Below the pieces are notes generated by a model. The model was given only the letters and a program-made list of their open reading frames with translations, had not been told where the DNA came from and did no database searches. The position numbers and the translations under genes are program-made. Of a stretch of DNA of 64,000 nt, positions 17,976-33,984 are shown in pieces (position 1 is the first letter of the stretch; every line of letters starts with the position of its first letter). The DNA comes from Anaerolineaceae bacterium (GTDB lineage: Bacteria > Chloroflexota > Anaerolineae > Anaerolineales > Anaerolineaceae), in NCBI GenBank assembly GCA_016841365.1, contig JAENZI010000001.1:310001-374000 (forward strand). Direction: 5' to 3'.

Positions 17976-18584
17976 TTAATGCCCGATAAGCGGTAAATAG
18001 ATTTGGTAGATCGGGGTGGATGTTTCGAGCACATTAATTGTGAAGGCTTTTTCGTAAAACAAGCCGCCTGAATCTGTTGTGCGAACGCGGATGGAATAGG
18101 TGGTTTGCTGGTCATAATCCAATATTTGGGAGGTGCGGAGCAGCGCGCCTGAGATATTGAAGGCGCTGTTCCCCGAATCACCCGCGCCACTGACCAGTGT
18201 GTAGATGAAAATGTCGCCCGCATCGGGGTCGGTGGTTGTCAGCGTGCCAACCTGCGTGTTGGCTGGCAACCCTTCTTCAATGGTGTTGTTGTCAAGCTGG
18301 ATATTCGTGGGTGCCTGGTTTTCAACGGTCAACCCGCCGCTCCAGAACCCGCTGGCGAGGGTGAAATCCCCGCCAGCACTCACACCGGCATCGGGCTGAC
18401 CGGCAGCACCACTCAGGGCATAGCCCCCGCCGCTGCTTGAACCACCCCCATCAATAGAGTGCCATGACAAATCAAACAGGCCCCCCGTTTGCGCCAGCAC
18501 CGGCACCACCGCAAGCAAGGTGATTAAAAGGACGGCAGGTGCCCACCAGGGAGTTTTAGGTAGGTTGTGCTTGATGTGTTTCAT
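17976..18584 (-). CDS. Secreted cadherin-like repeat protein
   Basis: The 202-residue protein has an N-terminal signal segment ([15 protein letters not shown]), a Ser/Gly stretch, then one cadherin-like beta-sandwich domain with [20 protein letters not shown] and [21 protein letters not shown], the latter carrying the calcium-type DxD elements. It ends in [11 protein letters not shown], a hydrophobic YLPLI ending that I recall from many Chloroflexota secreted proteins and that may be a sorting or processing signal. Its ATG overlaps the stop of the giant S74 protein (ATGA) and GGAGG precedes it, so the two secreted proteins are translated together and may interact. Confidence 0.75.
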
Positions 18585-21500
18585 AATTCACCTCCGGGCC
18601 GGCGGCGCACAAAGTACACACCACCGAAGACGAGCAAACCAACACCCAAAAGCCATTGGAAGGGGACAGCATCGGCGTGATTTTGGTGATTCCCTGCGTT
18701 CATCATTTGTTCGAGGGTGGTTAATCGTGCTTCAAGGTCATCCACCTGGGCTTTAAGCTCCTGGTTCTCAGCATACAAGCCCTGGATGGCAGCCAGTGCC
18801 ACACCGTCCGCGTCCATGCTGTTGATGAAATCGGCGCCTTCGCCGCCCAAACCCGCCACCAGGCTGTTGAATTCATCCGCCATCATGCCGATGTGGATGC
18901 TGGATTCGTCCTGGGATTTGTAATTCCAGGTGGTGATGGGGTATTCTGCCAGCGCCTCCAGCAGGGCAGCATTATCGACCGGTATGAAGTTCTCTTTGTG
19001 TTCACGGTTGCTGACATTGCTCCAGCCGCTGTCTCCTGCGGCGATATATGACCCTAAGTTCAAATCAGCACTCGTGTAGAAATACACGCCGCCAGTGGCA
19101 CGCGCCACCCAGCGGTTATCAACATCACAAATCACATCTGCCAGGGTGGAATCCCCCCAGACAAAGCAGCCAGGGTTGTTGGCTTTTGCCTGGGTGCCAG
19201 CGGCAAAGCTGAAGGTTCCCACGGCAGAATTACCATAGCCACCCGGGATAGCTGCAAGTGCCCCGCTGGCGGTATTGTCCTGACCCCCACCCACCGTGCT
19301 AAATTCACCGCTGGCAGTGTTTTCCTGCCCGCCCGCTACCGTGGCATAGGTGGCACTTGTGGGGTATGCATCATTGTCGCCAGCCTGGTTGCCGGCGCCG
19401 CCGCCCACCGTGCAGTAGTCATCGGTTGCATAGTTTGCCCGTAAAAGGGGATCGTCAGCATCCGGCTCATAGGGCCCGCCGCCGGAGATGGTGGTGTATG
19501 CCGCTGTGGCTTGGTTATAGTATCCCCCGCCAATTGTTGAACGAACACCGCTGGCGGTGTTGCTAATTCCGCCACCAATGGCACTAGCAATACCGCTGGT
19601 GGCGTTGCCCCCGCCGCCGCTAATGGTGCTGGTATATCCGCTGGCGGTGTTGCTATCCCCACCGCCAATTGTTGAATTACTACTACTGGCAACATTAAAT
19701 TGGCCTCCTGAAATTGTTGACATATAACCAGAGGCAGCATTATCGTACCCTCCACCCACAGTGCTAAAGCCTCCTGAAGCCTCGTTTAGTTCACCGCCAG
19801 CAACTGTTGCATACTCTTCACGTGCTCTATTATGTGTCCCCCCGCCAACGGTTGTATAAGCTGCTGAAGCATCGTTACTCCTTCCTCCGCCGATAGTAGC
19901 ATAATTGCTTAACAGAGGGTCTCCGTCATCCCATCCAGCCTGGTTGTTACCGCCGCCGCCGATCGTGCCGTAGTCATCAAAGACATTGTTGTTGCGGAAG
20001 GTTGGGAGTGCCGGGTCACTGGGTCCGCCACCGGCGATGGTCGCGTAAGCCGCATTGGCAAAGTTGTTCCAACCGCCGCCGATCGTGGCAAAAAGTCCGT
20101 TGGCGATATTGTCCTTGCCTCCACTGACCGTGGCGTAGGTGGCACTTGTGGGGTCTCCATCATTGTCGCCAGCATGGTTGCCGGCACCGCCGCCCACCGT
20201 GCAGTAGTCATCGGTTGCATAATTCGCCCTCAAGATAGGATTCTCAGCATCCAGGTCATAGGGTCCGCCGCCGGAGATGGTGGTGTATGCCGCTGTGGCT
20301 TGGTTATAGTATCCCCCTCCAATTGTTGAACGATCGCCGCTGGCGGTGTTGTCATAGCCACCACCAATGGCACTAGCAATACCGCTGGTGGCGTTGCCCC
20401 CGCCGCCAGCGATGGTAGATCCTCCACCGCTGGCGGTGTTGCTAGCCCCACCGCCAATTGTTGAATTACCTCCGCTGGCAACATTAACTTGACCTCCTGA
20501 AATTGTTGACATATAACCAGAGGCAGCATTATCGTACCCTCCACCCTCAGTGCTAAAGCCTCCTGAAGCCTCGTTTTGATAACCGCCAGCAACCGTTGCA
20601 AAATTTTCACGTGCTTCATTATCCTCCCCCCCACCAACGGTTGTAAAAGCTGCTGTAGCATAGTTAAATCTTCCTCCGCTGACGGTAGCATACTCGCTTA
20701 ACTGAGGGTCTCCATCATCCCATCCAGCCCGGTTGCCCCCACCGCCGCCGATAGTGCCGTAGTCATCAAAGATTTCGTTGTTGGAAGTGGTTGGGGATGC
20801 CAGGCTACTGGGTCCGCCGCCAGCGATGGTCGCGTAAGCCGCATTGGCAAAGTTGTTCCAACCGCCGCCGATTGTGGCAAAAAGTCCGCTGGCAGTGTTT
20901 TCCTGCCCGCCCGCTACCGTGGCGTAGGTGGCACTTGTGGGGTCTGCATCATTGTCGCCGGCCTGGTTGCCGCCGCCGCCGCCGATGGTGCCGTAGTCAT
21001 CAAAGATAGTGTTGTTGGTGGTGGTTGGGAATGCCGGGTCACTGGGTCCCCCACCGGATATGGTCGCGAAAGCCGCATTGGCAAAGTTGTTCCAACCGCC
21101 ACCGACGAAGGCGTAATGGCTATTCTGGGGGTCGATATCATTGCTCCCAGCCTGGTTGCCGGCGCCGCCGCCGATGGTGCCGTAATTATCAAAGATTGTG
21201 TTGGTTGAGCCGCCGCCCAAAAAGGCATACAGACCGCTGGCGGTGTTTCCCTGGCCGCCGCCCAAAAAAGCATAGTTACCGCTGGCGGTGTTGGCCGTGC
21301 CGCCGCCTAAAACGGCAAACGGACTGCTGGCAGTATTCCCAATTCCACCGCCCAGAACGGCATACAACCCGCTGGCTGTGTTCTGATATCCCCCGCCGAT
21401 GAGGCTGCGATTGGCGCTGGCGATGTTCAGATACCCGCCCGTGATGGCGGCGTAATCCCCTGAAGCCTGGTTAGCGGATCCGCCACTGATGGTGCTGGCA

Positions 21501-23659
21501 TATCCGCTGGTAGCGTTCGTGGTACCGCCGCCAACGGTGCTATTCGCGGCGCTGGCAGCATTTTGGAACCCGCCGCCCACTGTGGCATATGCAGCATCGG
21601 TTGCCGTGCCTGCGTTATCGCCTGCCTGGTTGCCGGCGCCCCCGCCCACCGTGCAGAAGTCATCGGTGGCACGATTGTTGGTTGTGGTGGGATTGCCAAG
21701 GTCGCTGGGTCCGCCACCGGACACCGTGGTGTATGCCGCCCCAGCAAGGTTGTAATACCCGCCGCTGATCGTTGCATAGTCGAAGTTCGCACTGTTATTC
21801 GTGCCGCCGCCAATTGCCGCAGATACCCCCGAGGCTGCGTTAGAAGCGCCGCCAGGGATGGCGGCGTATAAACCGCCGGCTGTATTTAAATATCCCCCGC
21901 CCAAAAAGGCATAACTGCCGCTGGCGGTGTTCTGATACCCCCCGCCGATGAGGCTGCGGTTGGCATTGGCGATGTTCTGGTAGCCGCCAGCGATGGCGGC
22001 GTAATCTCCTGAAGCCTGGTTATAGGATCCGCCACTGATGGTACTGGCATATCCGCTGGCAGCATTCGTGGTACCGCCGCCAATCGTTGTGTTTGAGGCA
22101 CTGGCAGTATTCAGGAAACCGCCACCCACCGTGGCATAAGTCGCATCGGTTGCCGTGCCGGCGTTATCACCTGCCTGGTTGCCGGCGCCCCCGCCCACCG
22201 TGCCGAAATCATCGGTTGCGGTGTTCTGTATGGACGAGGTTGGATTTTCCGGGTCGCTGGGTCCGCCGCCGGACACCGTGGTGTAAGCCGCCCCGGCAAG
22301 GTTGTAATACCCGCCGCCGACAACGGCGTAGAGACCGCTGGCGGTATTGGAGATGCCGCCGCCAATCACGGCTGAATCTCCCGCCTGGTTGCCGCCCCCG
22401 CCGCCCACCGTCCCGAAGATGCCTGTGACGCTGTTTTCCAACCCGGCACCCCCGCCGCCCGAGATGGTAGCGCCATGCAATCCCGTTGATAGCCAGTTGC
22501 CTGAAAAACCGCCGATCAGGTTGGGGCTGGTGGCATGTGGTTCAAAGCGGAAGACCCGTTCGCCTTTGACCTTGACCTCCAATGGCTGGTCGTCGCTGGT
22601 GCCAAGGTAGTTACTCCCTGGTGTGGTGTCGGCATTGCCGGTTAAAGACCATCCAACACTGCCCCCGCCGCTGACCGGTTCGCATACCACGCTGCCATCG
22701 GCGTTGATGGATTGGATGGCGTAACCCTCACCGCAGCCAGTGCCCACGCGGGCTTGCAGCACGGATAAGTCTGCATCGAATGCCGAGCCCGTAAGGGTCA
22801 GCCCTGTGCCCGCGGTGTAGGTGGTATTGTCATCCGTTTCACAGGTTACCGTGCCGTCTTGATCAATGGCGCGGATGGCACTGCCTGCCATACAGGTCTC
22901 GCTGACACGGCGCTGGATATATGTGGGGTCAGCAGACAGGGTCACGTCGCCAATGGTGCCGCCGCCTAACATTCCCGTGCCGGCAATTACAGCAGTGATA
23001 TCACCGGCGCCGCCCGCCACGGCTTCGCACAACACCGTCCCGTCCAGGTTGACCTGCCGGATGGCATAACCACTGCCGCAGCTCTCGCTGATGCGTGCCT
23101 GGATGGCGGTTGTGTCTACGGAGAAGGTTGTGGCGGAGAGGGTCAAACCCGTCCCGGCTGTGTAAGTGGTGTTGTCGTCAACCGCGTCTGCAAAGCCAGC
23201 GGGCATGCCAGTTATACCGGTCCAGGGCACCTGGTCAGCAAGTGCTGCAGTTTTTGAATATAAGGCGTAGGGCGCTGCTGAGAGAAATTGACGGGGTGAA
23301 AGCGGGGTAAAGGTACCCGTGCCCGCCGGGCAGCGCACGGCGATATCCAACCAGCGGTTTTCACCCTGAAAGGCACCGGGTCCATAATCCAGCTGGACCG
23401 TGAAATATCCCTCATTAATGGGGATGCCGGATAAGATCCGTTCGCCGATTTGTGCGCCTTCGGTGAGTGCGTCATACAGCCCAAAGGTGAAATCGCATGT
23501 GCCAGAATACGGGGTACCACTGTTCTCTAATTGACCCTGGAAGGTGAAGGCTGTGCTCAACGGTGTGCTTCTCGACGCTTGCGCAGCAGCCATTCCGGGT
23601 AAAAGAAAAAGTAAGATTAAGCCCATCAGGCAAAAGATGAAAGTAAATCTGCTCTTCAT
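18581..23659 (-). CDS. Giant repetitive surface protein with S74 intramolecular chaperone domain
   Basis: The 1692-residue protein starts at the ATG at 23659 (AAGGAG upstream). It has a signal peptide ending in MAAAQA, a domain of about 110 residues with [18 protein letters not shown], and linker repeats. From about residue 400 to 1480 it consists of about 15-residue units around (I/V)GGGxxNxASG, interrupted by longer spacers with [10 protein letters not shown]. The repeats suggest a stacked beta-roll like YadA-type heads. Next comes a peptidase S74 domain with the Ser/Lys dyad S1550 and K1555 (SNREHK), a coiled coil, and a C-terminal membrane helix (1667-1685) followed by RRR. S74 domains drive trimer assembly of phage tail spikes and then cleave themselves off. 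Here the product is probably a trimeric cell-surface fibre. Confidence 0.8.
19230..22440 (-). repeat. Long-period coding tandem duplications inside the S74 protein gene
   Basis: The element around TCATTGTCGCC recurs at 19371, 20160 and 20949, an exact 789-base period (263 codons). Upstream in the gene, TTGCCGTGCC recurs at 21601 and 22150, a 549-base period (183 codons). The shorter unit of about 45 bases (15 codons) is superimposed. Both long periods keep the reading frame, so copy number can change without breaking the gene. Confidence 0.85.
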
Positions 23660-23838
23660 GTCTGTTCTCCTTTTGTTGAAGCAATGTAATCCGAAGGACC
23701 GCACGATTAAAAAAAGACCCACGCCACCGGGGATATTCAGTGAGTGGGCTGCGTAGGATAGGACATCTCGACTGGGACTTTGCCCCAGGCTTACAGCAAT
23801 ATTAAATTATGGCTCTGATGGTTGGGCTTATGTTTGAT
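23660..23838 (-). promoter_or_regulatory. Structured 5' leader with attenuator, candidate riboswitch
   Basis: The transcript predicted from the promoter at 23845-23873 has about 180 bases before the start codon. It contains a small hairpin CTGGG-GCAAAGT-CCCAG (about 23780) in a conserved-looking purine-rich context and then an intrinsic terminator 45 bases before the ribosome binding site. I compared it by memory with c-di-GMP, SAM, TPP, cobalamin and THF aptamers and found no match, so the class is unassigned. Confidence 0.5.
23709..23748 (-). terminator. Intrinsic terminator inside the S74 gene leader
   Basis: On the minus strand CCCAC pairs with GTGGG (plus an inner CAC/GTG) and is followed directly by TC and seven T. 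It stands upstream of the gene's ribosome binding site, where it can only act as an attenuator. Confidence 0.65.
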
Positions 23839-24131: not shown

Positions 24132-24137
24132 AAGAAG

Positions 24138-24212
24138 TCGGGGCGCTGGGATTCGAACCCAGGGCCTCTTACACCCCATGCAAGCGCGCTAGCCGGACTG
24201 CGCCACGCCCCG
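24138..24212 (-). tRNA. tRNA-Pro (anticodon GGG)
   Basis: The minus strand folds into a complete cloverleaf: acceptor CGGGGCG pairing with CGCCCCG, D stem GCGC/GCGC, anticodon stem CTTGC/GTAAG with loop ATGGGGT (anticodon GGG), and a T arm with GGTTCGAATCC. The discriminator is A, as usual for bacterial tRNA-Pro. CCA is not encoded, so it must be added after transcription. It is the only complete tRNA seen in the window. Confidence 0.96.
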
Positions 24213-24273: not shown

Positions 24274-25074
24274 TCAGGGTACGGTTCCAATTGCGTAGAA
24301 GGTTGGGATGAACAGGATGCGCTCCCGGTTGTGACGGGCACGCTGGTCAATGGCTTTAAATTCCGCCAGCCTTTCAGCCCTCAAATGGGATGCAAGGTCA
24401 TGCTGCAAAGCCATCCATTCGACCTCGTCTGGCTGTTCCCAGGTGGTTTGCGACCACAATGCCCCCAAAATGCCGACTTCAATGTCTTGCAAGCCGATTT
24501 GATGAAACAACTGACCGAGCCTGCGTCCAACAGCCACATGCGCGCCCTGGTTGCGAAGGGCTTGTGTTTGCAGTCCGCCCAATTCATCCAACGGTGGCGG
24601 AAAGTCAATCCGTGAAGGATGATCCGGTTCAGCCAGTGCAATGACGCTCCCCCCGGGGTGCGTCACACGCCGCATTTCCTGCAAGATTTGACGGGGGTGT
24701 TCGATCCACAATAAAAGGTAGTGGCACAGGGTGATCCCAAAGGTATGTTCCGCAAAGGGCAGGCGGTAGCCATCCGCTTGCGCCATCAATGCGGGGATAG
24801 GCTGATCTTGGGAGAAACGCAGGCTGAGTGGGTCAATGTCGATGCCGGTGAGTTGGTAATCGCCCTCCTGTTCCAAGCAAGTAAGCAGCGCGCCGGTCCC
24901 TGAGCCAACTTCAAGCACGTTGTGATTTACCTCAGAACCGGCTTTCTTGAGCAGGTAAGCCCGAATGTCAGCCGTCCACTGCGCCTGCTGCAGGTAACGC
25001 TGATGCCATCTTGCCAGTTCGTTTGCCTGATCGTCACCGGGGGTCACGAATGCTAATCCCAGATCGCTTCCCAT
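24274..25074 (-). CDS. Class I SAM-dependent methyltransferase in the radical SAM operon
   Basis: The protein of up to 266 residues has a seven-strand Rossmann methyltransferase fold. Motif I is HNVLEVGSGTGALLTCLE, the acidic residue that binds the SAM ribose is in GIDIDPLSLRF, motif IV is ITLCHYLLLW and motif VI is PGGSVIALAEPDH. The start is either ATG 25074, overlapping the preceding gene by 22 bases, or GTG 25047, five bases after that gene's stop; neither has a strong ribosome binding site, which fits translational coupling. As last gene of the operon with the Cys-Ala tail protein and two radical SAM homologues, it may methylate the same substrate. A small-molecule substrate cannot be excluded. 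Confidence 0.8.
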   Translation of the reverse strand: MGSDLGLAFVTPGDDQANELARWHQRYLQQAQWTADIRAYLLKKAGSEVNHNVLEVGSGTGALLTCLEQEGDYQLTGIDIDPLSLRFSQDQPIPALMAQADGYRLPFAEHTFGITLCHYLLLWIEHPRQILQEMRRVTHPGGSVIALAEPDHPSRIDFPPPLDELGGLQTQALRNQGAHVAVGRRLGQLFHQIGLQDIEVGILGALWSQTTWEQPDEVEWMALQHDLASHLRAERLAEFKAIDQRARHNRERILFIPTFYAIGTVP

Positions 25075-26204
25075 GGGTCTGTCAGCAGGTTGCCCAGCAC
25101 CCGGTCGTACATACCCTGTGCGGGTAAAACATCTCCATCTGGTTCGACATATAGCCAGGCTTTGCCTGCGCCTTCGGGCGGCTCCTGTGTCTCAGCGTTC
25201 TCTAATTCCAGTGAAACGGGGTTATTCCTCGAATAGGGCACCGGGAGATCCCAGACCAGCTCCAACTGCTGCACAGCGGCAAAGTCGCGCAAATTTTGCA
25301 GTTCCTCAGAAAGTCCGGCATCGGACGCACTCAGTGAGAGGGCGTTTGCCCCCATCTCAGCCAGGCGTGTGATATGCGGACGCAGGTTGTGTCCCTTTTC
25401 GAGGGTGAGGTGGACGGTTGTGTGGATGTCTTCAGGCAGGACTTTTGCCAGCGACTCCCATACGTTGGGGTTGTCCGGATCCAGGACAACCATCAAGTGA
25501 TCCAGACCGTTGAGCAGTAACTGCTGACGGAAATCATCATCCTTCAATCTCAGACCGTCTGTCAGCACACCTGTGACCAAACCCAGCTCTTCCGCCTTCA
25601 GGAGCAGTTCTGGTAAATCTTCTCGCAATGTCGGCTCGCCGCCGGTGAACAGGACGTGCGGAATGCCGATCTCGAACGCTTTTTGCAGGATGGTGACCCA
25701 CTCATCAGCCGTCAGCTCGCGATTGACCCGGTCGAGGGGTGCATGTTCGCTGTGGCTGCCTTCACCGACACGGTAGGTCAGGGCACAATCCAGTCGGTAA
25801 GGTGCAGCGATTTCTCCGGAGTAAGGTTCTTGCCTTTCAATATCAAAATAGGTGACGGGGTCAAGATCTGGTGTGTGAATGATTGTCTGGATCTGGTTGA
25901 GGAATTTGCCGAAGTCCAGCCGGGCTTGATCTTTTTCCACCTGGTAGCGGCGGGAAATTTCGTCCACAGCCTTATCCAAATCGTGTTTCTTGATAAAGTG
26001 ATAGGCGAATTCCGCCGCGGTTTGGTTGAGATGAAGTACGGTGGCGGCATTGATGATTAGGATGCCCGTACCGTCTTTCTCGATTCGAAGATGCAGCCGA
26101 TATTGCTCCTTCTCATCCGGCGGGGTTTGGTAACTGAACATGCCTGACGGGAGCGGTTCTTTTTCTGAAAATAAACGCTTGATGGATTGAAATAAGCTTG
26201 TCAT
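25053..26204 (-). CDS. Cysteine-less radical SAM pseudoenzyme with N-terminal PqqD-like domain
   Basis: The 383-residue protein is a paralogue of its upstream neighbour along its length. Residues about 40-110 form a PqqD-like peptide-recognition domain (LHLNQTAAEFAYHF, ISRRYQVEKDQARLDFGKFL). The radical SAM core keeps APYRLDCALTYR and the SAM-binding GGEPT (HVLFTGGEPTLREDLPEL). The three cluster cysteines are replaced: V146, S150 and E153 stand where the partner has C148, C152 and C155. The SPASM cysteines are also gone (GDVLPAQ for GDVLPCQ) and the last Cys-rich part is missing. Only one Cys (C140) remains in the protein. It cannot hold the 4Fe-4S cluster and probably acts as a scaffold or regulatory subunit. 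The start ATG 26204 has GGAG five bases upstream. Confidence 0.85.
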   Translation of the reverse strand: MTSLFQSIKRLFSEKEPLPSGMFSYQTPPDEKEQYRLHLRIEKDGTGILIINAATVLHLNQTAAEFAYHFIKKHDLDKAVDEISRRYQVEKDQARLDFGKFLNQIQTIIHTPDLDPVTYFDIERQEPYSGEIAAPYRLDCALTYRVGEGSHSEHAPLDRVNRELTADEWVTILQKAFEIGIPHVLFTGGEPTLREDLPELLLKAEELGLVTGVLTDGLRLKDDDFRQQLLLNGLDHLMVVLDPDNPNVWESLAKVLPEDIHTTVHLTLEKGHNLRPHITRLAEMGANALSLSASDAGLSEELQNLRDFAAVQQLELVWDLPVPYSRNNPVSLELENAETQEPPEGAGKAWLYVEPDGDVLPAQGMYDRVLGNLLTDPWEAIWD

Positions 26205-26215
26205 GTTCACTCCGT

Positions 26216-27592
26216 TCAATTGATGAACTCAAGATGATGGACTGGTTTTATGGTTTGGTGTTCTCTGGCTAAGGGGCAGCCGCCGCCGCATTCGATCAAA
26301 AAATCACAGGTGCGGCATCCTTCAGGGACATCTTCACGGTTGCGCAGTTTGAGCGCCAGCGGATGTTCCCAAATCTCTTTCCAGGGTTTTTCGAGGAAAT
26401 TGCCGAGGGATTCGTAATAAGATTGGCAGGGAAGGACATCGCCGTTGGGCTCAATGCACATATTGTACAGCGCAGCGGTGCAGCCCTTCACGCCCAATCC
26501 GAGCTGGATGGGGTTAAAATGGCAGTATTGTGTCGGCGTATACCAGATCAGACGCTGCTGATAAGAATCGGTGATGCGCCGTGCTGTTTCCAGCAGGTCC
26601 GGCAATTCTTCTTCGTGCAAGCCGGTGCCGACCTCTTTGCCTTTCCCGGCGTAGATCAGCGCATTAAGTCCCACAGTTGGGACACCAATCTCACCCAGGA
26701 AGTGCAGGGTTTGTTCAAGGCTTCCCCTGTTGTGGGTCAGCAGAGTGGTGTTCGTCATGATATACAGTTTTGAGGCGATCACATTTTTTAAGCCGGCGAC
26801 GGTTTCTTCCCATGCGCCTTTGGCGTTCACCATCCGGTCATGGATGGCTGCATCGTGTGACTCCAGAGTAATTTGGACGTGGTCCAACCCGGCATTGATC
26901 AGCGAGTCGAGATAATCCTGATCTGCAAGTTTTCGCCCGTTGGTGTTGAGCCCGGTGATCAAGCCGGTTTCCTCCGCATAAGCGACCAATTCCGGCAAAT
27001 CACGATAGAGGGTTGGTTCACCGCCGGTGAATACCACATGCGGGATTCTGAGCGACCAGATTTTGTCAATGGCTTTTTTCCATTGATCTGCAGACATTTC
27101 AGGAAAGGTGCGCAGTCGTGCATTGTAGCAATGGCTGCAATTATTGTTACAGCGGTAAGTGATCGCTAAATCCATGCGATACGGTGCACTGAGCTGGGCA
27201 CTGAAGGGTGCGGTGGTTTCAAGGTTCAGGTCACAAACCGGGCAAGCGCCATTCGGTTCAAGCAGTGTTTCGAGATTAAGACTGAAAATCAGGTAATCTT
27301 CTTGGGCTAAAGATTTTTTAACACGATATTGTTTTCTGAAAGCCCGTACGGCTTCCTTGAATGTAATCTCTTCAAGGTGCAGATAAGCCATAAACGCTGC
27401 GGAGGGGTTTAACTGAATCACGCGGTTGGCATTGATGATCAACAGCCCGCTGCCGTTCGGATCAATGCGTAGATGGATGCGGGATTTGCCTTCCGGTTCT
27501 TCACGCTGGTAATGATAGATACCTGGGTCAGGTGGCGCGGAGACTGAGATTGAACCTTTCAGGTTACCAAATAATGATTTAAGAGATTTCAT
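26216..27592 (-). CDS. PqqD-radical SAM-SPASM peptide-modifying enzyme, putative
   Basis: The 458-residue protein has an N-terminal PqqD-like domain (about residues 45-115; IQLNPSAAFMAYLHL, FRKQYRVKKSLAQEDYLIF), a CPVC pair, and a radical SAM core with C148-x3-C152-x2-C155 (RCNNNCSHCYN) and the SAM-contacting GGEPT. The C-terminal SPASM domain carries Cys in GCTAALYNMC, LPCQ, CRTCDF and ECGGGC, enough for two auxiliary clusters. This order (recognition domain, radical SAM, SPASM) is typical of enzymes that install thioether or carbon-carbon crosslinks in ribosomal peptides. The upstream gene encodes a protein with a seven-cysteine tail, the obvious candidate substrate. Its ribosome binding site lies in a hairpin (27606-27633). 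Confidence 0.85.
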   Translation of the reverse strand: MKSLKSLFGNLKGSISVSAPPDPGIYHYQREEPEGKSRIHLRIDPNGSGLLIINANRVIQLNPSAAFMAYLHLEEITFKEAVRAFRKQYRVKKSLAQEDYLIFSLNLETLLEPNGACPVCDLNLETTAPFSAQLSAPYRMDLAITYRCNNNCSHCYNARLRTFPEMSADQWKKAIDKIWSLRIPHVVFTGGEPTLYRDLPELVAYAEETGLITGLNTNGRKLADQDYLDSLINAGLDHVQITLESHDAAIHDRMVNAKGAWEETVAGLKNVIASKLYIMTNTTLLTHNRGSLEQTLHFLGEIGVPTVGLNALIYAGKGKEVGTGLHEEELPDLLETARRITDSYQQRLIWYTPTQYCHFNPIQLGLGVKGCTAALYNMCIEPNGDVLPCQSYYESLGNFLEKPWKEIWEHPLALKLRNREDVPEGCRTCDFLIECGGGCPLAREHQTIKPVHHLEFIN

Positions 27593-27605
27593 AATGTTTA
27601 ATATC

Positions 27606-27633
27606 TCTCCTGACGACTTTTTTCATCAGGAGA
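27606..27633 (-). promoter_or_regulatory. Hairpin covering the ribosome binding site of the radical SAM gene
   Basis: TCTCCTGA and TCAGGAGA form a perfect 8-base stem with a 12-base loop in the 60-base gap between the tail-protein gene and the radical SAM gene. The downstream arm contains AGGAG, the only good ribosome binding site, about 13 bases before the ATG at 27592. There is no T-run after it, so it looks like translational control that would keep enzyme levels below substrate levels. Confidence 0.5.
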
Positions 27634-27652
27634 TGATTGAGATGTCTTCAAA

Positions 27653-29410
27653 TTAGCGGCCGCCGCCGGCACAGGCACAAGCACAGCCGGCACAGGCACA
27701 GGCACAGGCGCAAGAGCTTCCGCCGCCGCCCCTGAATCCGCCCGAGCCGCTCCTGGTTGTGGTGCTGACGGGTATCGGGTTGGTGCGGTTGGTGATGCCA
27801 CTGGTGAATGCGGTCAGGTTGCCGACAACGCCAGCAGCCATGCCTGTTGCGCCGTTGATCACATTTGCGGCGAAATCAGAACCCGGGATATGTGGCAGTG
27901 AAGCCTGCCCGCCGGTGGATGGCTTGCCGACAGATACGCCGCCTGTTCCAACAGGGGTGACGCCGCCGCCAATTTGCCGGCGGTAGGTGGGTGAATAACG
28001 CGGCCACCACATGGGCACGAAAACCGGTCCGCCTGTGAAGGTGCGGCGTGTCCGGTCCTGATATTCGTTATCCAACATCGTCCATTCAAGCGTCTGATTG
28101 TAATTTTCGCTTTTGACTTCCGGTGTTTCAGCCTCTTCGACCATCTGCCATGCCCGGCGCATAATGTCTTCATAATAGGCGATGGATTCCTTCGTCGAGA
28201 AACCTTTCATCTTGCGAGAAACGCTGTTTACCAGATCGACCATCATCTTCTGCAAGGCAGTCCGCCGCTCTTTTTCAGGGCCTCTGAACGCTTCCAAGAA
28301 ATCCACTTCATAAGGATGCAGATTTTCAGGCAATTGCTCTGGAACCTCCAATTTAAGCGGGTCTTGCTGCAGAACAATCGCTGTTTCTTTTTTAAGCGTT
28401 CCGAAGAGGATCATCGTGAGGACTTTATCCATTGGTTGTTCCATCAGGATCGCCGCTTCAACCGCCGTCAGACCGCGTTTGATCCCATGTCCCTCGATTT
28501 TCATCTTGGGTGGCAGGTATTTCATCTTGCGTTTTTGTGCCCCAACAGTGCCCTGGTAAATGCTCCAGCCGAAAATTGCCATAAAGAACAGGCCGAACCC
28601 AAAGCAGCAAATATTCCCGCCTAATAAACTCCAGATCCAACCGGCAAAGCCTGGGCTGCTGGTTGAAGAATCGGGCTCAATGAAAACGGGTTTTTCGGCA
28701 ACAGTGTCTGCAGGTACGTAAGCCGCCGGGAAGGCACCGCCAAAGGTGTACCTGGAGTGCAGGTCTGCGTTATCCGTGAACCAATAGTAGTAGACCCGGT
28801 CACCTTCAGCCGTGCGCCCGATCTCGGTTGGTTCTGACTGCCCGGGCCAATTTTCGGGTGTGTAGTACACGCCCTCTTCATCGCCGACACCCGGGGGCAA
28901 GATCAGGGCGACTGCATATTCTGTGGACCTGCTTTTATCTGATTGAGAGTCAAAATAATTTGGCATCAGGTTAAAGCTGACGTAATTTTCCTGGTCACCC
29001 TGGTCATATGGATAAAGAAAATTCTGAATACCAGGGATCCACACGGATACGGTGCCAGAGCTCCCGGGCTGGATGGCATTCGACCCCAGATTTAGGGCGA
29101 ATCCAATGTCAACATAGGGCGAGTCTTCAATTTGAGTGATCGGCTGACCGTTGACATCTGCCTCGATCAGGCTTCGATTATAAGCAGATGAGGGCAAGCC
29201 AATGTCCACATACTCCATAGGGTCAGCCGAGGGATCGTTCTGGAACTCGTAGATATAGTTCAGGGATAAAGTGCCGTCTTCTTCAATGTAGGCATTTACC
29301 TCCGCATATGTGACTTCGAAAAGATAGACATCTTGTGCGGATGCAGGCGAAGGCAGTGCGAACAGGCTGAAAAACAGCAGTAATAGGAGAAAATGTCGAT
29401 ATTTATTCAT
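27653..29410 (-). CDS. DUF2207-like membrane protein ending in a Cys-Ala repeat tail
   Basis: The 585-residue protein has a signal peptide (to about residue 25, ALPSPASA), an extracytoplasmic beta-rich domain (26-250) of DUF2207 type, one strong membrane segment (256-285, with a CC pair) and a cytoplasmic region with a winged-helix-like part (300-400; GLTAVEAAILMEQPMDKVL). A Gly/Thr-rich linker leads to the C-terminal tail, where CACACACAGCACACAGGG occupies residues 567-584 before the final Arg. It holds seven Cys (567, 569, 571, 573, 576, 578, 580) separated by Ala or Ala-Gly. The predicted topology leaves this tail in the cytoplasm, reachable by the radical SAM protein encoded next. I read it as the substrate of that enzyme; metal binding by the tail is the main alternative. 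Confidence 0.8.
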   Translation of the reverse strand: MNKYRHFLLLLLFFSLFALPSPASAQDVYLFEVTYAEVNAYIEEDGTLSLNYIYEFQNDPSADPMEYVDIGLPSSAYNRSLIEADVNGQPITQIEDSPYVDIGFALNLGSNAIQPGSSGTVSVWIPGIQNFLYPYDQGDQENYVSFNLMPNYFDSQSDKSRSTEYAVALILPPGVGDEEGVYYTPENWPGQSEPTEIGRTAEGDRVYYYWFTDNADLHSRYTFGGAFPAAYVPADTVAEKPVFIEPDSSTSSPGFAGWIWSLLGGNICCFGFGLFFMAIFGWSIYQGTVGAQKRKMKYLPPKMKIEGHGIKRGLTAVEAAILMEQPMDKVLTMILFGTLKKETAIVLQQDPLKLEVPEQLPENLHPYEVDFLEAFRGPEKERRTALQKMMVDLVNSVSRKMKGFSTKESIAYYEDIMRRAWQMVEEAETPEVKSENYNQTLEWTMLDNEYQDRTRRTFTGGPVFVPMWWPRYSPTYRRQIGGGVTPVGTGGVSVGKPSTGGQASLPHIPGSDFAANVINGATGMAAGVVGNLTAFTSGITNRTNPIPVSTTTRSGSGGFRGGGGSSCACACACAGCACACAGGGR

Positions 29411-29413
29411 AGA

Positions 29414-29782
29414 TCACCATTTTGGTTCTTCAGTTAATTGGTAGGTTGTTCCACAATGCGGGCATTCCACCACAGGTGCGCCAGCTATCATCTTAACATC
29501 ATCAGATGTGATCGGGCCACCGCAGGACTGGCACTTGATGGTATCCATGCCTACCTCACCCGGGAGGTCGATGTTGTAATTGACAATCTGGTCACCGGCT
29601 TTTTGGGGCGGGCTGAGTTTTGTCCCGACAAAGATCAAGATAAACCCGATCCCCAGGCCAATGATGCCGATAATCAGCCAGCTTGGAGAGCCTTCAGGGC
29701 TGAATGCGCCTAAAATGAAAAGAAAGGCAAAGACGATAAAAATCGCCGCTGTGACAAATGCAATAATTCTTCCTGCTTTCAT
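29414..29782 (-). CDS. Small membrane protein with C-terminal zinc ribbon
   Basis: The 122-residue protein has two predicted membrane helices (about 6-27 and 35-54) followed by a soluble zinc ribbon with CQSCGGP near residue 85 and CPHCGTTY near 108. Two CxxC pairs 20-odd residues apart fit one zinc site. Its stop lies three bases before the ATG of the Cys-Ala tail protein, so the two are translated together and probably form a membrane assembly. It is the first gene of the five-gene operon. No named family is recognised. Confidence 0.7.
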   Translation of the reverse strand: MKAGRIIAFVTAAIFIVFAFLFILGAFSPEGSPSWLIIGIIGLGIGFILIFVGTKLSPPQKAGDQIVNYNIDLPGEVGMDTIKCQSCGGPITSDDVKMIAGAPVVECPHCGTTYQLTEEPKW

Positions 29783-29899: not shown

Positions 29900-29905
29900 T
29901 ATAAT
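29900..29905 (+). promoter_or_regulatory. -10 box of the rex promoter
   Basis: A perfect TATAAT lies 58 bases before the rex start at 29964. The -35 region is weak. An in-frame ATG at 29904 falls inside this box and so cannot be the translation start. Confidence 0.45.
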
Positions 29906-29963
29906 GAGATTTATTACAGAAACCATAACTAAATTCGACTCAATAATTATACAGGAATTTCAC

Positions 29964-30581
29964 ATGAAAGACGATTTTGTTCCGGATGTTGTGATCAGTC
30001 GATTGCCATTGTATCTGCAAGAGCTTAATCATCTGGCAAAAGAGGGCCTGCATACAGTATCTTCGAAGGTGATGGCTGCCCGACTGGGAACGACTGCTGC
30101 ACAGATCAGGAAGGACCTTTCATATTTTGGCGGGTTTGGAAAACAGGGCAGCGGGTATCAAATTTATGATTTGATCGAGCAACTCCAAAAAATATTGAAT
30201 ATGGACCATGTTTGGCAGGTGGTGGTGGTCGGGGCTGGCGATCTGGGCCGGGCTTTGACCCATTACCAGGGCTTTGCCAGTCAGGGCATTGAAATCGTAG
30301 CACTTTTCGATGTTGACCCAAAGCTTGTTGGCACGCAGGTTGGATCAATCGCTGTGCGGCATGTGGATGAAATGGAAGATGAATTAAAAAACTTGGGAAT
30401 TAAGATCGCGATATTGACTGTTCCAGGCGGTGTCGCTCAGGAAGTGGCAGAAAAATTGGTCAAGTTTGGCGTTAGAGCGATATTAAACTATGCCCCTGTC
30501 TCACTGATGCTGCCAGAAGAGGTGCATGTCCAGCATATTGACCCGGTGCCGCATATTCAAAAGATGATGTATTACCTGTAA
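29964..30581 (+). CDS. rex: Redox-sensing transcriptional repressor Rex
   Basis: The 205-residue protein starts at the ATG at 29964 with AGGAA eleven bases upstream. It has an N-terminal winged helix (SRLPLYLQELNHLAKEG, GTTAAQIRKDLSYFGGFGKQG) and a C-terminal Rossmann domain with VVVVGAGDLGRALTHY for NADH binding, closing with the domain-swapped helix HIQKMMYYL. Rex senses the NADH/NAD ratio and represses fermentation and respiration genes when NAD predominates. This agrees with an anaerobic or facultative lifestyle. Its end overlaps the stop of the opposite gene by ten bases. No Rex operator was seen in its own promoter. Confidence 0.93.
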   Translation: MKDDFVPDVVISRLPLYLQELNHLAKEGLHTVSSKVMAARLGTTAAQIRKDLSYFGGFGKQGSGYQIYDLIEQLQKILNMDHVWQVVVVGAGDLGRALTHYQGFASQGIEIVALFDVDPKLVGTQVGSIAVRHVDEMEDELKNLGIKIAILTVPGGVAQEVAEKLVKFGVRAILNYAPVSLMLPEEVHVQHIDPVPHIQKMMYYL

Positions 30582-32433: not shown

Positions 32434-32748
32434 ATTTGATTCCTTTAATTTATAAACATGCCACGCGAGAATGCGGCATACTTCTGATTGCAATAAATCT
32501 GCCAGAATATCTTAAATCGGCTCTGGCTTATTGATTTGACAAATAAGAGCACACTAAAAACCTGCGTATCGCTCAATTAATCCTTAGTATTATGTCCTAA
32601 TTTTATCATTTCTGCAAAATTAAGGTTGTGAGTGGTGATGCGTTTTTTTGTACAGGGTTTGGGAAGGTAGAATAGAAGTCAAACACATCTTTAGGTATAC
32701 TGATATATAATTAGTAGTATCTTGCTATCGTTTGGACGGAGGCTTGAC
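32434..32748. other. Intergenic region between divergent genes
   Basis: This 315-base stretch is AT-rich and must hold the promoters of the MreB-like gene and of the SRPBCC-PDZ-DinB gene. A TATAAT at about 32705 fits the latter, but a good -35 box is not visible. I see no RNA gene or small coding frame with a ribosome binding site. Confidence 0.5.
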
Positions 32749-33984
32749 ATGCCCGATACCGAATCCTTTGTTTACCAAAAGTTGATTAATGCACCTGCGG
32801 ATTTGATCTACCGCGCGTTTACTTCTTCTGCCGCCTTGCGGGAGTGGTTGTGTGATATCTCGACCACGAATCCCACTGAAGGGGGATGGATTTATTTAGC
32901 GTGGAATCGGGGTTATTTTGCCAGCGGAAAATTCACTAAACTTGTGCAAGATCAATCCGTCGAATTTGAGTGGATTGGCACAGATGAACCTGCGTGGACC
33001 CAGGTGCGGGTCAATATCATACCTGCCGAGAAAGAGGGCACCTTTTCAGTGACCCTCGAGCATGTGGGCATTGGTGATGATCCTGAGTGGGATAAATCTC
33101 GCAAGGATATCGACAAAGGCTGGAAATTGGGTATGGAAAACCTGCGGTCAACGCTTGAGGAAGGACGAGATCTGAGGGTGATAGAACGACCGTTGATTGG
33201 CATCTATCCCGAAGACTTTTCGAACCTCAATGACTCCGCACGCGATGCACTAAATGTCCCAGTGGACTTTGGGGTTCTCGTCTCTGATGTTGTGCCGGGG
33301 TTTGGGGCTGAGAAAGCGGGTATCCAGAAAGGTGATTTAATCGTGGCTATTGATGATGTCAAGGTTGACCGGATCAGGTCACTGGGAGCAGTCATCAATG
33401 AATATCAGGCGGGGGATCAGATAAAGGTGGACATCTTTCGAGGCAATGAAAAACGAACACTAATTGTGGACACAAAAACACAGAGCGTCAAAGCCTTACC
33501 CGATACACCAGAAGAATTGGCAAAACATCTTGAAGGTAGTTTTTCGGAAGAACTTGAAAAGCTTGAAAAGGTGTTAGAAGGTGTGACAGACGCAGAAGCA
33601 TCTTACTCGCCCGGAGATGGTGAATGGTCTGCCAAAGAAACGCTTGTGCATCTCATCCACAGCGAACGGGAACAGCATAGCTGGATCAATGACCTGGTTA
33701 GCGGACAAGAACGGTTTTACGATGAGTGGCCTGGCGATCCTTTGTATCGGATCAGAGCGACACTGACCACTTATCCTACTATTGATGACCTGCTCGCTGA
33801 ATTTCGCCGGAGCCTCAAAGAAACCGTGGCCACGGTGGCTTTTCTTGATCACACCTTCACACGCCGCAAAGCCAGTTACTGGCGCTTGGGGACAGAGTTA
33901 TTGGGCATGCCCAAGCATATTCAAGAGCACATTAAACAAATTGAGGATAATATCAACGCTGCTCGGCGCACAAAACCAGAATGA
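32749..33984 (+). CDS. SRPBCC-PDZ-DinB three-domain fusion protein
   Basis: The 411-residue cytoplasmic protein starts at the ATG at 32749, with GGAGG six bases upstream. Residues 1-145 form an AHSA1-type SRPBCC fold (INAPADLIYRAFTSSAALREWL, VTLEHVGIGDDPEWD). Residues about 155-255 are a PDZ domain (GVLVSDVVPGFGAEKAGIQKGDLIVAID). Residues 265-405 are a DinB-like four-helix bundle (YSPGDGEWSAKETLVHLIHSEREQ, FLDHTFTRRKASYWRLG). DinB and SRPBCC domains often bind small molecules; PDZ binds peptide C-termini. Without signal peptide or protease domain, the PDZ probably acts in the cytoplasm. I do not know a characterised protein with this order. Confidence 0.82.
   Translation: MPDTESFVYQKLINAPADLIYRAFTSSAALREWLCDISTTNPTEGGWIYLAWNRGYFASGKFTKLVQDQSVEFEWIGTDEPAWTQVRVNIIPAEKEGTFSVTLEHVGIGDDPEWDKSRKDIDKGWKLGMENLRSTLEEGRDLRVIERPLIGIYPEDFSNLNDSARDALNVPVDFGVLVSDVVPGFGAEKAGIQKGDLIVAIDDVKVDRIRSLGAVINEYQAGDQIKVDIFRGNEKRTLIVDTKTQSVKALPDTPEELAKHLEGSFSEELEKLEKVLEGVTDAEASYSPGDGEWSAKETLVHLIHSEREQHSWINDLVSGQERFYDEWPGDPLYRIRATLTTYPTIDDLLAEFRRSLKETVATVAFLDHTFTRRKASYWRLGTELLGMPKHIQEHIKQIEDNINAARRTKPE

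Follow-up and report, generated by a model that had tools for sequence, protein, structure and literature searches.

RRE-radical SAM-SPASM enzymes are known chiefly for secreted peptides and cofactors. A locus in an Anaerolineaceae bacterium (contig JAENZI010000001.1) raises the question of whether an enzyme of this kind acts on the C-terminal tail of a resident membrane protein. An earlier note on this DNA had described five tightly packed genes within the window (the whole stretch of DNA that was analysed, 64,000 nucleotides). All five open reading frames are present at the coordinates listed below, all on the minus strand, and the packing is indeed tight, with spacings of 3, 60 and 11 bases followed by a 22-base overlap.

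29414..29782, minus strand: zinc-ribbon protein (ZnR), 122 aa; it has two transmembrane helices and, at the C-terminus, a zinc ribbon (CxxC...CxxC), with EEPKW as its last residues
27653..29410, minus strand: tail protein, 585 aa, with full-length homologues in 49 of 61 relatives
27656..27715, minus strand: Cys-Ala tail, residues 566-585 of the tail protein, SCACACACAGCACACAGGGR, with seven cysteines and its end at the stop codon
26216..27592, minus strand: RRE/PqqD-radical SAM-SPASM enzyme, 458 aa, recognised by cluster motifs and fold
25053..26204, minus strand: pseudo-radical SAM paralogue, with an RRE, a radical SAM-like barrel and a SPASM remnant, without cluster cysteines
24274..25074, minus strand: class I SAM-dependent methyltransferase, 266 aa, with a methyltransferase Pfam match

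A conserved operon encodes a receptor-like membrane protein

The order ZnR, tail protein, radical SAM enzyme, paralogue and methyltransferase was observed across genera and families of Anaerolineae. This rests on the neighbourhoods of 39 of the 49 tail-protein genomes, few of which show insertions or missing members, and the position of the ZnR gene upstream of the tail gene is kept in nearly all neighbourhoods. Neither the tail protein nor the zinc-ribbon protein reached a Pfam cutoff, and the tail protein and both radical SAM proteins stayed below every NCBIfam cutoff; membership of a known named family was rejected for the tail protein and the radical SAM proteins on these Pfam and NCBIfam cutoffs.

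Several features of the surrounding DNA were recorded. A gene for Rex, an NADH-sensing repressor, lies divergently beside the operon in this genus (29904-30581), with MreB and DUF6585 genes beyond it, and a tRNA-Pro(ggg) gene (24137-24212) lies immediately downstream of the methyltransferase gene. The window also encodes a 1713-aa repetitive surface protein of GGG..N.A type with a C-terminal Peptidase_S74 (endosialidase chaperone) domain (18581-23722), followed by a cadherin-domain gene, and a 420-aa protein in which AHSA1, PDZ and DinB domains are fused (32722-33984). In some families, genes for a CDP-alcohol phosphatidyltransferase, a lipid A-type acyltransferase and a PAP2 phosphatase (L049, 12671-14806; L068, 11347-14142; and L054) are inserted between the radical SAM genes or directly after them, hinting at a link to membrane lipids.

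The tail protein is, as had been claimed, a 585-residue membrane protein whose terminus, SSCACACACAGCACACAGGGR, alternates between Cys and Ala. Its layout comprises a signal peptide, a beta-sandwich ectodomain (residues 31-230), one transmembrane helix (about 255-296), a cytoplasmic part with winged-helix-like and helical domains (316-458), a disordered linker and the Cys-Ala tail, and the transmembrane and signal predictions agree with the earlier placement of the tail on the cytoplasmic side. In the predicted model (mean pLDDT 83.6), the best solved match to the ectodomain is ribophorin I/OST1 (Z 16.7 over 185 residues, rmsd 2.8), followed by M1 aminopeptidase domains (Z 12.7). Ribophorin I resembles the tail protein in having the same ectodomain fold in a luminal domain that precedes a transmembrane helix, but identity is only 13% and the cytoplasmic part differs; there was no match to the Ribophorin_I Pfam, and a profile search of PDB sequences did not return ribophorin I. 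This modelled likeness is one of fold only and is no proof of a common function.

The label “DUF2207-like” proposed earlier gained no Pfam support above cutoff: the window protein has no PF09972 or PF20990 match and the few family members that match do so only below cutoff. As far as is known, DUF2207 members have Gly-rich ends without the Cys-Ala motif, while sharing with the tail protein a signal peptide, an extracytoplasmic domain, a transmembrane helix and a cytoplasmic domain. A DUF2207 gene knockout has been studied in Streptococcus mutans (PMC10457818).

About 5-8 kb before the window start (L031, 2441-5077; G000:C13:302441-305077), a gene encodes a serine/threonine kinase that has a transmembrane helix and, at its C-terminus, an FGE-sulfatase domain; its ectodomain shares 62% identity with the ectodomain of the tail protein, which suggests a sensor module that can be reused. 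The cytoplasmic domain has tail-less paralogues (L066, 4323-5195; L273, 7102-8112; L280, 8794-9504), two of which adjoin a radical SAM gene of a second type with a long C-terminal extension.

The Cys-Ala tail is conserved and widespread

The seven cysteines noted earlier in the tail were confirmed and are arranged 4+3 on either side of one Gly. The exact tail pattern occurs as one copy per genome in 48 of the 61 relatives; in the 49th tail-protein genome (G041) the gene runs off the contig end and the tail is not visible. In an alignment of 48 sequences, conservation was observed to be highest in the tail, with a mean of 0.94, and other regions of the protein reach only 0.37-0.55. The members of this alignment were partly picked by the tail pattern; that pattern fixes neither the six residues of CAGGGR nor the position of the stop, yet these are nearly invariant. 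The spacer residues are almost always Ala, and synonymous codons vary freely in the tails, where every codon of each residue is used, including six for the final Arg. Chance or a low-complexity artefact was ruled out by this codon variation together with a reversed control pattern, which gave zero matches in the same 61 relatives.

Tails of the form (CA)3-5-[G/S]-(CA)3-4-GGGR came in at least 152 distinct versions, each ending exactly at the stop codon; among the 152 tabulated, the arm counts are 4+3 (n = 100), 3+3 (n = 20), 5+3 (n = 17) and 3+4 (n = 15). A scan of 84,980 species returned at least 119 tail-pattern stretches, nearly all at the exact C-terminus, and nine of the 119 listed matches (Mediterranea, Alphaproteobacteria, Streptomyces and similar) were dropped as spurious because of wrong context or tiny open reading frames. 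The tails extend to numerous anaerobic bacteria, in at least about a dozen phyla, and to a number of archaea, Asgard archaea among them, so the earlier framing of the system within Chloroflexota alone was too narrow. Variants include CACACASCACACACVSCACACAGGGVGR in Bathyarchaeota, CACACACVSCACACAGGGR in Hermodarchaeota and, in gut Clostridia, a conserved extension, AGCSxKDFY, beyond GGGR. There is no wide spread in Lachnospirales, where only 2 of 196 genomes have the exact CACAGGGRAGC pattern, and a tblastn search of plasmids with a composite tail query gave no match.

Many of the surveyed genomes are metagenome-assembled (MAGs). Contamination was ruled out for the Hodarchaeal case, in which a contig of 4.94 Mb carries the operon at 4.76 Mb, and the archaeal enzymes cluster together in the enzyme tree, for which only a quick tree was built. 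In one Hermodarchaeal genome, two Cys-Ala tails that differ from each other were found, each on its own contig (L269 and L270).

The tail protein and a radical SAM enzyme co-occur

A tail that was widespread without the radical SAM genes would have refuted the link drawn in the earlier note. This was not the case: the family radical SAM enzyme was observed in 69 of 69 tail-protein genomes that were searched and was missing from 17 of 17 searched relatives without the tail protein. Among the relatives, where the enzyme was scored at E below 1e-30 and tail-protein homologues were found with the whole protein, 49 of 61 genomes have both and the other 12 have neither. Outside Anaerolineae, the enzyme was detected in all 20 tail-bearing genomes (Asgard, Bathyarchaeota, Clostridia, Coatesbacteria, Edwardsbacteria, Planctomycetes and other Chloroflexota) and in none of five tail-less Hodarchaeal relatives; the match in one genome (G674) is partial. 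As these genomes are related, the counts are not independent events. A tail-blind profile applied to 400 Chloroflexota gave 29 strong tail-protein homologues, in exactly the 29 tail-bearing genomes; this sample covers the tail protein against the tail only and not the radical SAM enzyme. Both the whole-protein homologue search and the tail-blind profile are unbiased by the tail pattern.

The genes lie on different contigs in a Lokiarchaeote (G455), a Sigynarchaeote (G459) and a Hermodarchaeote (G460), with the enzyme still present, and are about 130 kb apart in one member of the Chloroflexota (G057). Because the coupling persists when the genes are unlinked, the association is not merely operon hitch-hiking. 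The proposal of a PqqD-radical SAM operon dedicated to the tail is supported by this co-occurrence, in unlinked genomes too, while the modification itself is inferred.

Three Chloroflexota genomes encode, at L248, L279 and L281, a tail-protein homologue with a terminal repeat of (CHSA)n type, in which Cys mostly recurs at every fourth residue and which has an Ala-Cys step in common with the main tail. Each adjoins an RRE-radical SAM gene with CxxxCxxC, so that tail type and enzyme diverge together, and such joint change is what a substrate relation predicts.

The enzyme resembles peptide maturases

The radical SAM cluster motif CxxxCxxC is present in the enzyme as CNNNCSHC (residues 148-155), and its cysteines are invariant across 32 diverse homologues. 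SPASM cysteines, for which the expected signature is CX9-15GX4C ... CX2CX5CX3C, are found as CX12GX4C (371-389) and CX2CX5CX3C (426-439); the final, seventh SPASM Cys is not evident in the window enzyme, and in the enzymes of gut Clostridia the second SPASM cysteine set is mostly missing. Pfam matches comprise Radical_SAM (99 bits) and SPASM (40.4 bits, cutoff 21.5), with PqqD falling below its gathering score (17.5 against 23.4). The N-terminal RRE/PqqD domain was instead recognised by fold, since in the model (mean pLDDT 89.5) the alignments to SkfB and SuiB cover the N-terminal domain, starting at model residues 37 and 26, respectively, and reaching 441/449.

SkfB is the closest solved enzyme both by sequence profile (E = 3.5e-32) and by fold (Z 28.6 over 351 residues), SuiB (Z 27.9 over 370 residues) and CteB are also close, and PqqE is among the closest solved relatives. 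The nearest solved structures are peptide maturases. None of the named NCBIfam radical SAM families scored above cutoff (the best was NirJ2, 139 bits against 500; PqqE, 123 against 381), and the same was true of Clostridial and Bathyarchaeal homologues.

The paralogue and methyltransferase are accessory

The second radical SAM-like protein had been called cysteine-less. It does lack CxxxCxxC and the SPASM cysteines, but one Cys remains in its 388 residues. The ATG at 26204, which gives 383 aa, is a likelier start codon than the TTG at 26219. CxxxCxxC is absent from all complete paralogue homologues listed; by Pfam, the radical SAM match is weak and PqqD is above cutoff (29.0 bits). In systems with mirrored 3+4 tails (Armatimonadota, Planctomycetota and some Chloroflexota), the second radical SAM-like protein is a different one, from which CxxxCxxC has been lost but in which some SPASM cysteines survive. 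In thuricin CD, TrnC and TrnD form a tight complex in which only the radical SAM activity of TrnC is strictly essential (PMC12093266), which parallels the active/dead enzyme pair of this operon.

Methyltransferase homologues adjoin the tail/radical SAM pair in Asgard archaea too, and the paralogue is absent beside the pair in the archaeal loci inspected. Neither paralogue nor methyltransferase was found beside the pair in gut Clostridia. A two-gene version, with a radical SAM gene and a short tail protein, occurs in gut or rumen Clostridia, including Hungatella hathewayi (L271, L272, L276 and L277), and no methyltransferase or ZnR gene was seen adjoining these four loci. The core of the system is the tail protein and the radical SAM enzyme; the methyltransferase and ZnR are common, and the cysteine-poor paralogue belongs to Anaerolineae. 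The paralogue and methyltransferase, both missing beside the Clostridial pair, are accessory and not part of the core.

A proposed modification of the tail

We interpret the locus as a dedicated protein-tail modification system in which the RRE/PqqD-radical SAM-SPASM enzyme acts on the Cys-Ala tail, and we put the probability of this at about 0.7, the role of the tail as substrate being inferred. On our best reading, the tail would be a permanently attached RiPP-like substrate, probably thioether-crosslinked, although the thioether chemistry is an inference that rests solely on the tail cysteines and the nearest relatives of the enzyme. The RRE domain would dock the conserved cytoplasmic end of the membrane protein, and the enzyme would act on the (CA)n-G-(CA)n-GGGR tail by means of a 5'-deoxyadenosyl radical. 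The likeliest reaction would crosslink cysteine sulfurs as thioethers to neighbouring or opposing backbone positions, in a sactionine- or ranthipeptide-like manner, and the two Cys-Ala arms about a central Gly or Ser suggest a hairpin; the bond type is likewise inferred. In Anaerolineae, the dead paralogue would probably form a complex with the active enzyme and hold the substrate, and in most lineages the methyltransferase may contribute a further step or mark, both of these being putative roles. Since no peptidase or exporter is encoded with the system, the product is likely retained on the protein. The modified tail would probably not be excised and may persist on the cytoplasmic face of this receptor-like membrane protein as an element that is rigid or redox/metal-active, a function that is again inferred.

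The main rival reading is cluster assembly, in which the tail is a metal or Fe-S ligand that receives a cluster, loaded or assembled by the radical SAM enzyme, or in which the unmodified tail stores metal or electrons or delivers them to the enzyme. Seven close-set cysteines, a zinc-ribbon protein encoded alongside and strict coupling to an Fe-S enzyme are all compatible with this, and the co-occurrence would be equally expected if the tail served the enzyme, for example as a cluster or electron donor, rather than being its substrate. We nevertheless consider it unlikely, as near-constant Ala spacers and the GGGR end exceed what simple thiolate ligation should require, the enzyme is nearest to RRE-bearing peptide crosslinking maturases and not to cluster-assembly radical SAM proteins, and conserved cluster-assembly genes were not seen in the neighbourhoods.

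PqqA and MftA are consumed to yield PQQ and mycofactocin, and the tail could similarly be modified and then cleaved from the protein as the precursor of a small redox cofactor or signal. The PqqD-type domain with a SPASM enzyme, the presence of PqqE among the nearest solved relatives and the C-terminal site behind a flexible Gly-rich linker would all suit such a route. It is made improbable by an operon without a conserved peptidase or exporter, by the fusion of the tail to a conserved membrane protein in every lineage and by the AGCSxKDFY extension that gut Clostridia keep past GGGR. Lastly, operon order alone is no proof of substrate and the methyltransferase target is unknown, but there is very little room for enzymes that act on another peptide or protein with the tail protein merely an operon-sharing membrane anchor or partner, given that co-occurrence survives gene unlinking, that no other conserved small Cys-rich open reading frame was noticed in the neighbourhoods inspected and that tail type shifts with the enzyme in the CHSA set.

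Modification of a tail that stays on its protein remains our preferred reading. A broader proposal, which we advance tentatively and at somewhat less than even odds, is that this is an undescribed covalent modification common to bacteria and Asgard archaea, in which the (CA)n-G-(CA)n tail of a receptor-like membrane protein is permanently turned by a radical SAM enzyme into a crosslinked or cofactor-like structure with a role in a conserved membrane process; RiPP chemistry would then be used for a housekeeping or signalling protein and not for a secreted product. If the tail is modified, this would be a new kind of post-translational modification on a resident membrane protein, in Asgard archaea and gut bacteria, and if the modification can be demonstrated the system could form its own class. 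A membrane protein whose almost unvarying tail is strictly coupled to an enzyme of this kind in two domains of life is left unnamed by Pfam and NCBIfam. A system of one tail and one enzyme lets the chemistry be tested directly, with the CHSA-tailed sisters as a natural comparison set.

Comparison with known systems

No paper on the motif, on DUF2207 together with radical SAM enzymes or on a comparable system was found in the open-access literature. The kind of enzyme is already known; for the kind of substrate, the spread over two domains and the strict coupling at one tail per genome, we know of no precedent. SPASM enzymes catalyse many reactions, and to our knowledge none that has been characterised has a (CA)n substrate.

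SkfB, CteB and TrnC/TrnD of thuricin CD are likewise RRE-radical SAM-SPASM enzymes that work on a Cys-rich stretch. The present system differs from sactipeptide and ranthipeptide systems in that its presumed substrate, the cytoplasmic C-terminal end of a membrane protein of 585 aa, is not a small leader-core peptide, in that there is no protease or exporter, and in that it is kept in bacteria and archaea, unlike strain-specific antibiotics. The small, cleaved and exported precursor that defines those classes is not matched here, with no conserved peptidase or exporter in the neighbourhoods inspected. anSME, also a radical SAM enzyme with a SPASM domain, has a large protein as its substrate, in which it modifies a cysteine, and it is a good fold match to the window enzyme (Z 25.4). 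However, the sulfatase CxPxR/CxAxR motif is absent here, the candidate site comprises seven C-terminal cysteines, and the enzyme carries an RRE.
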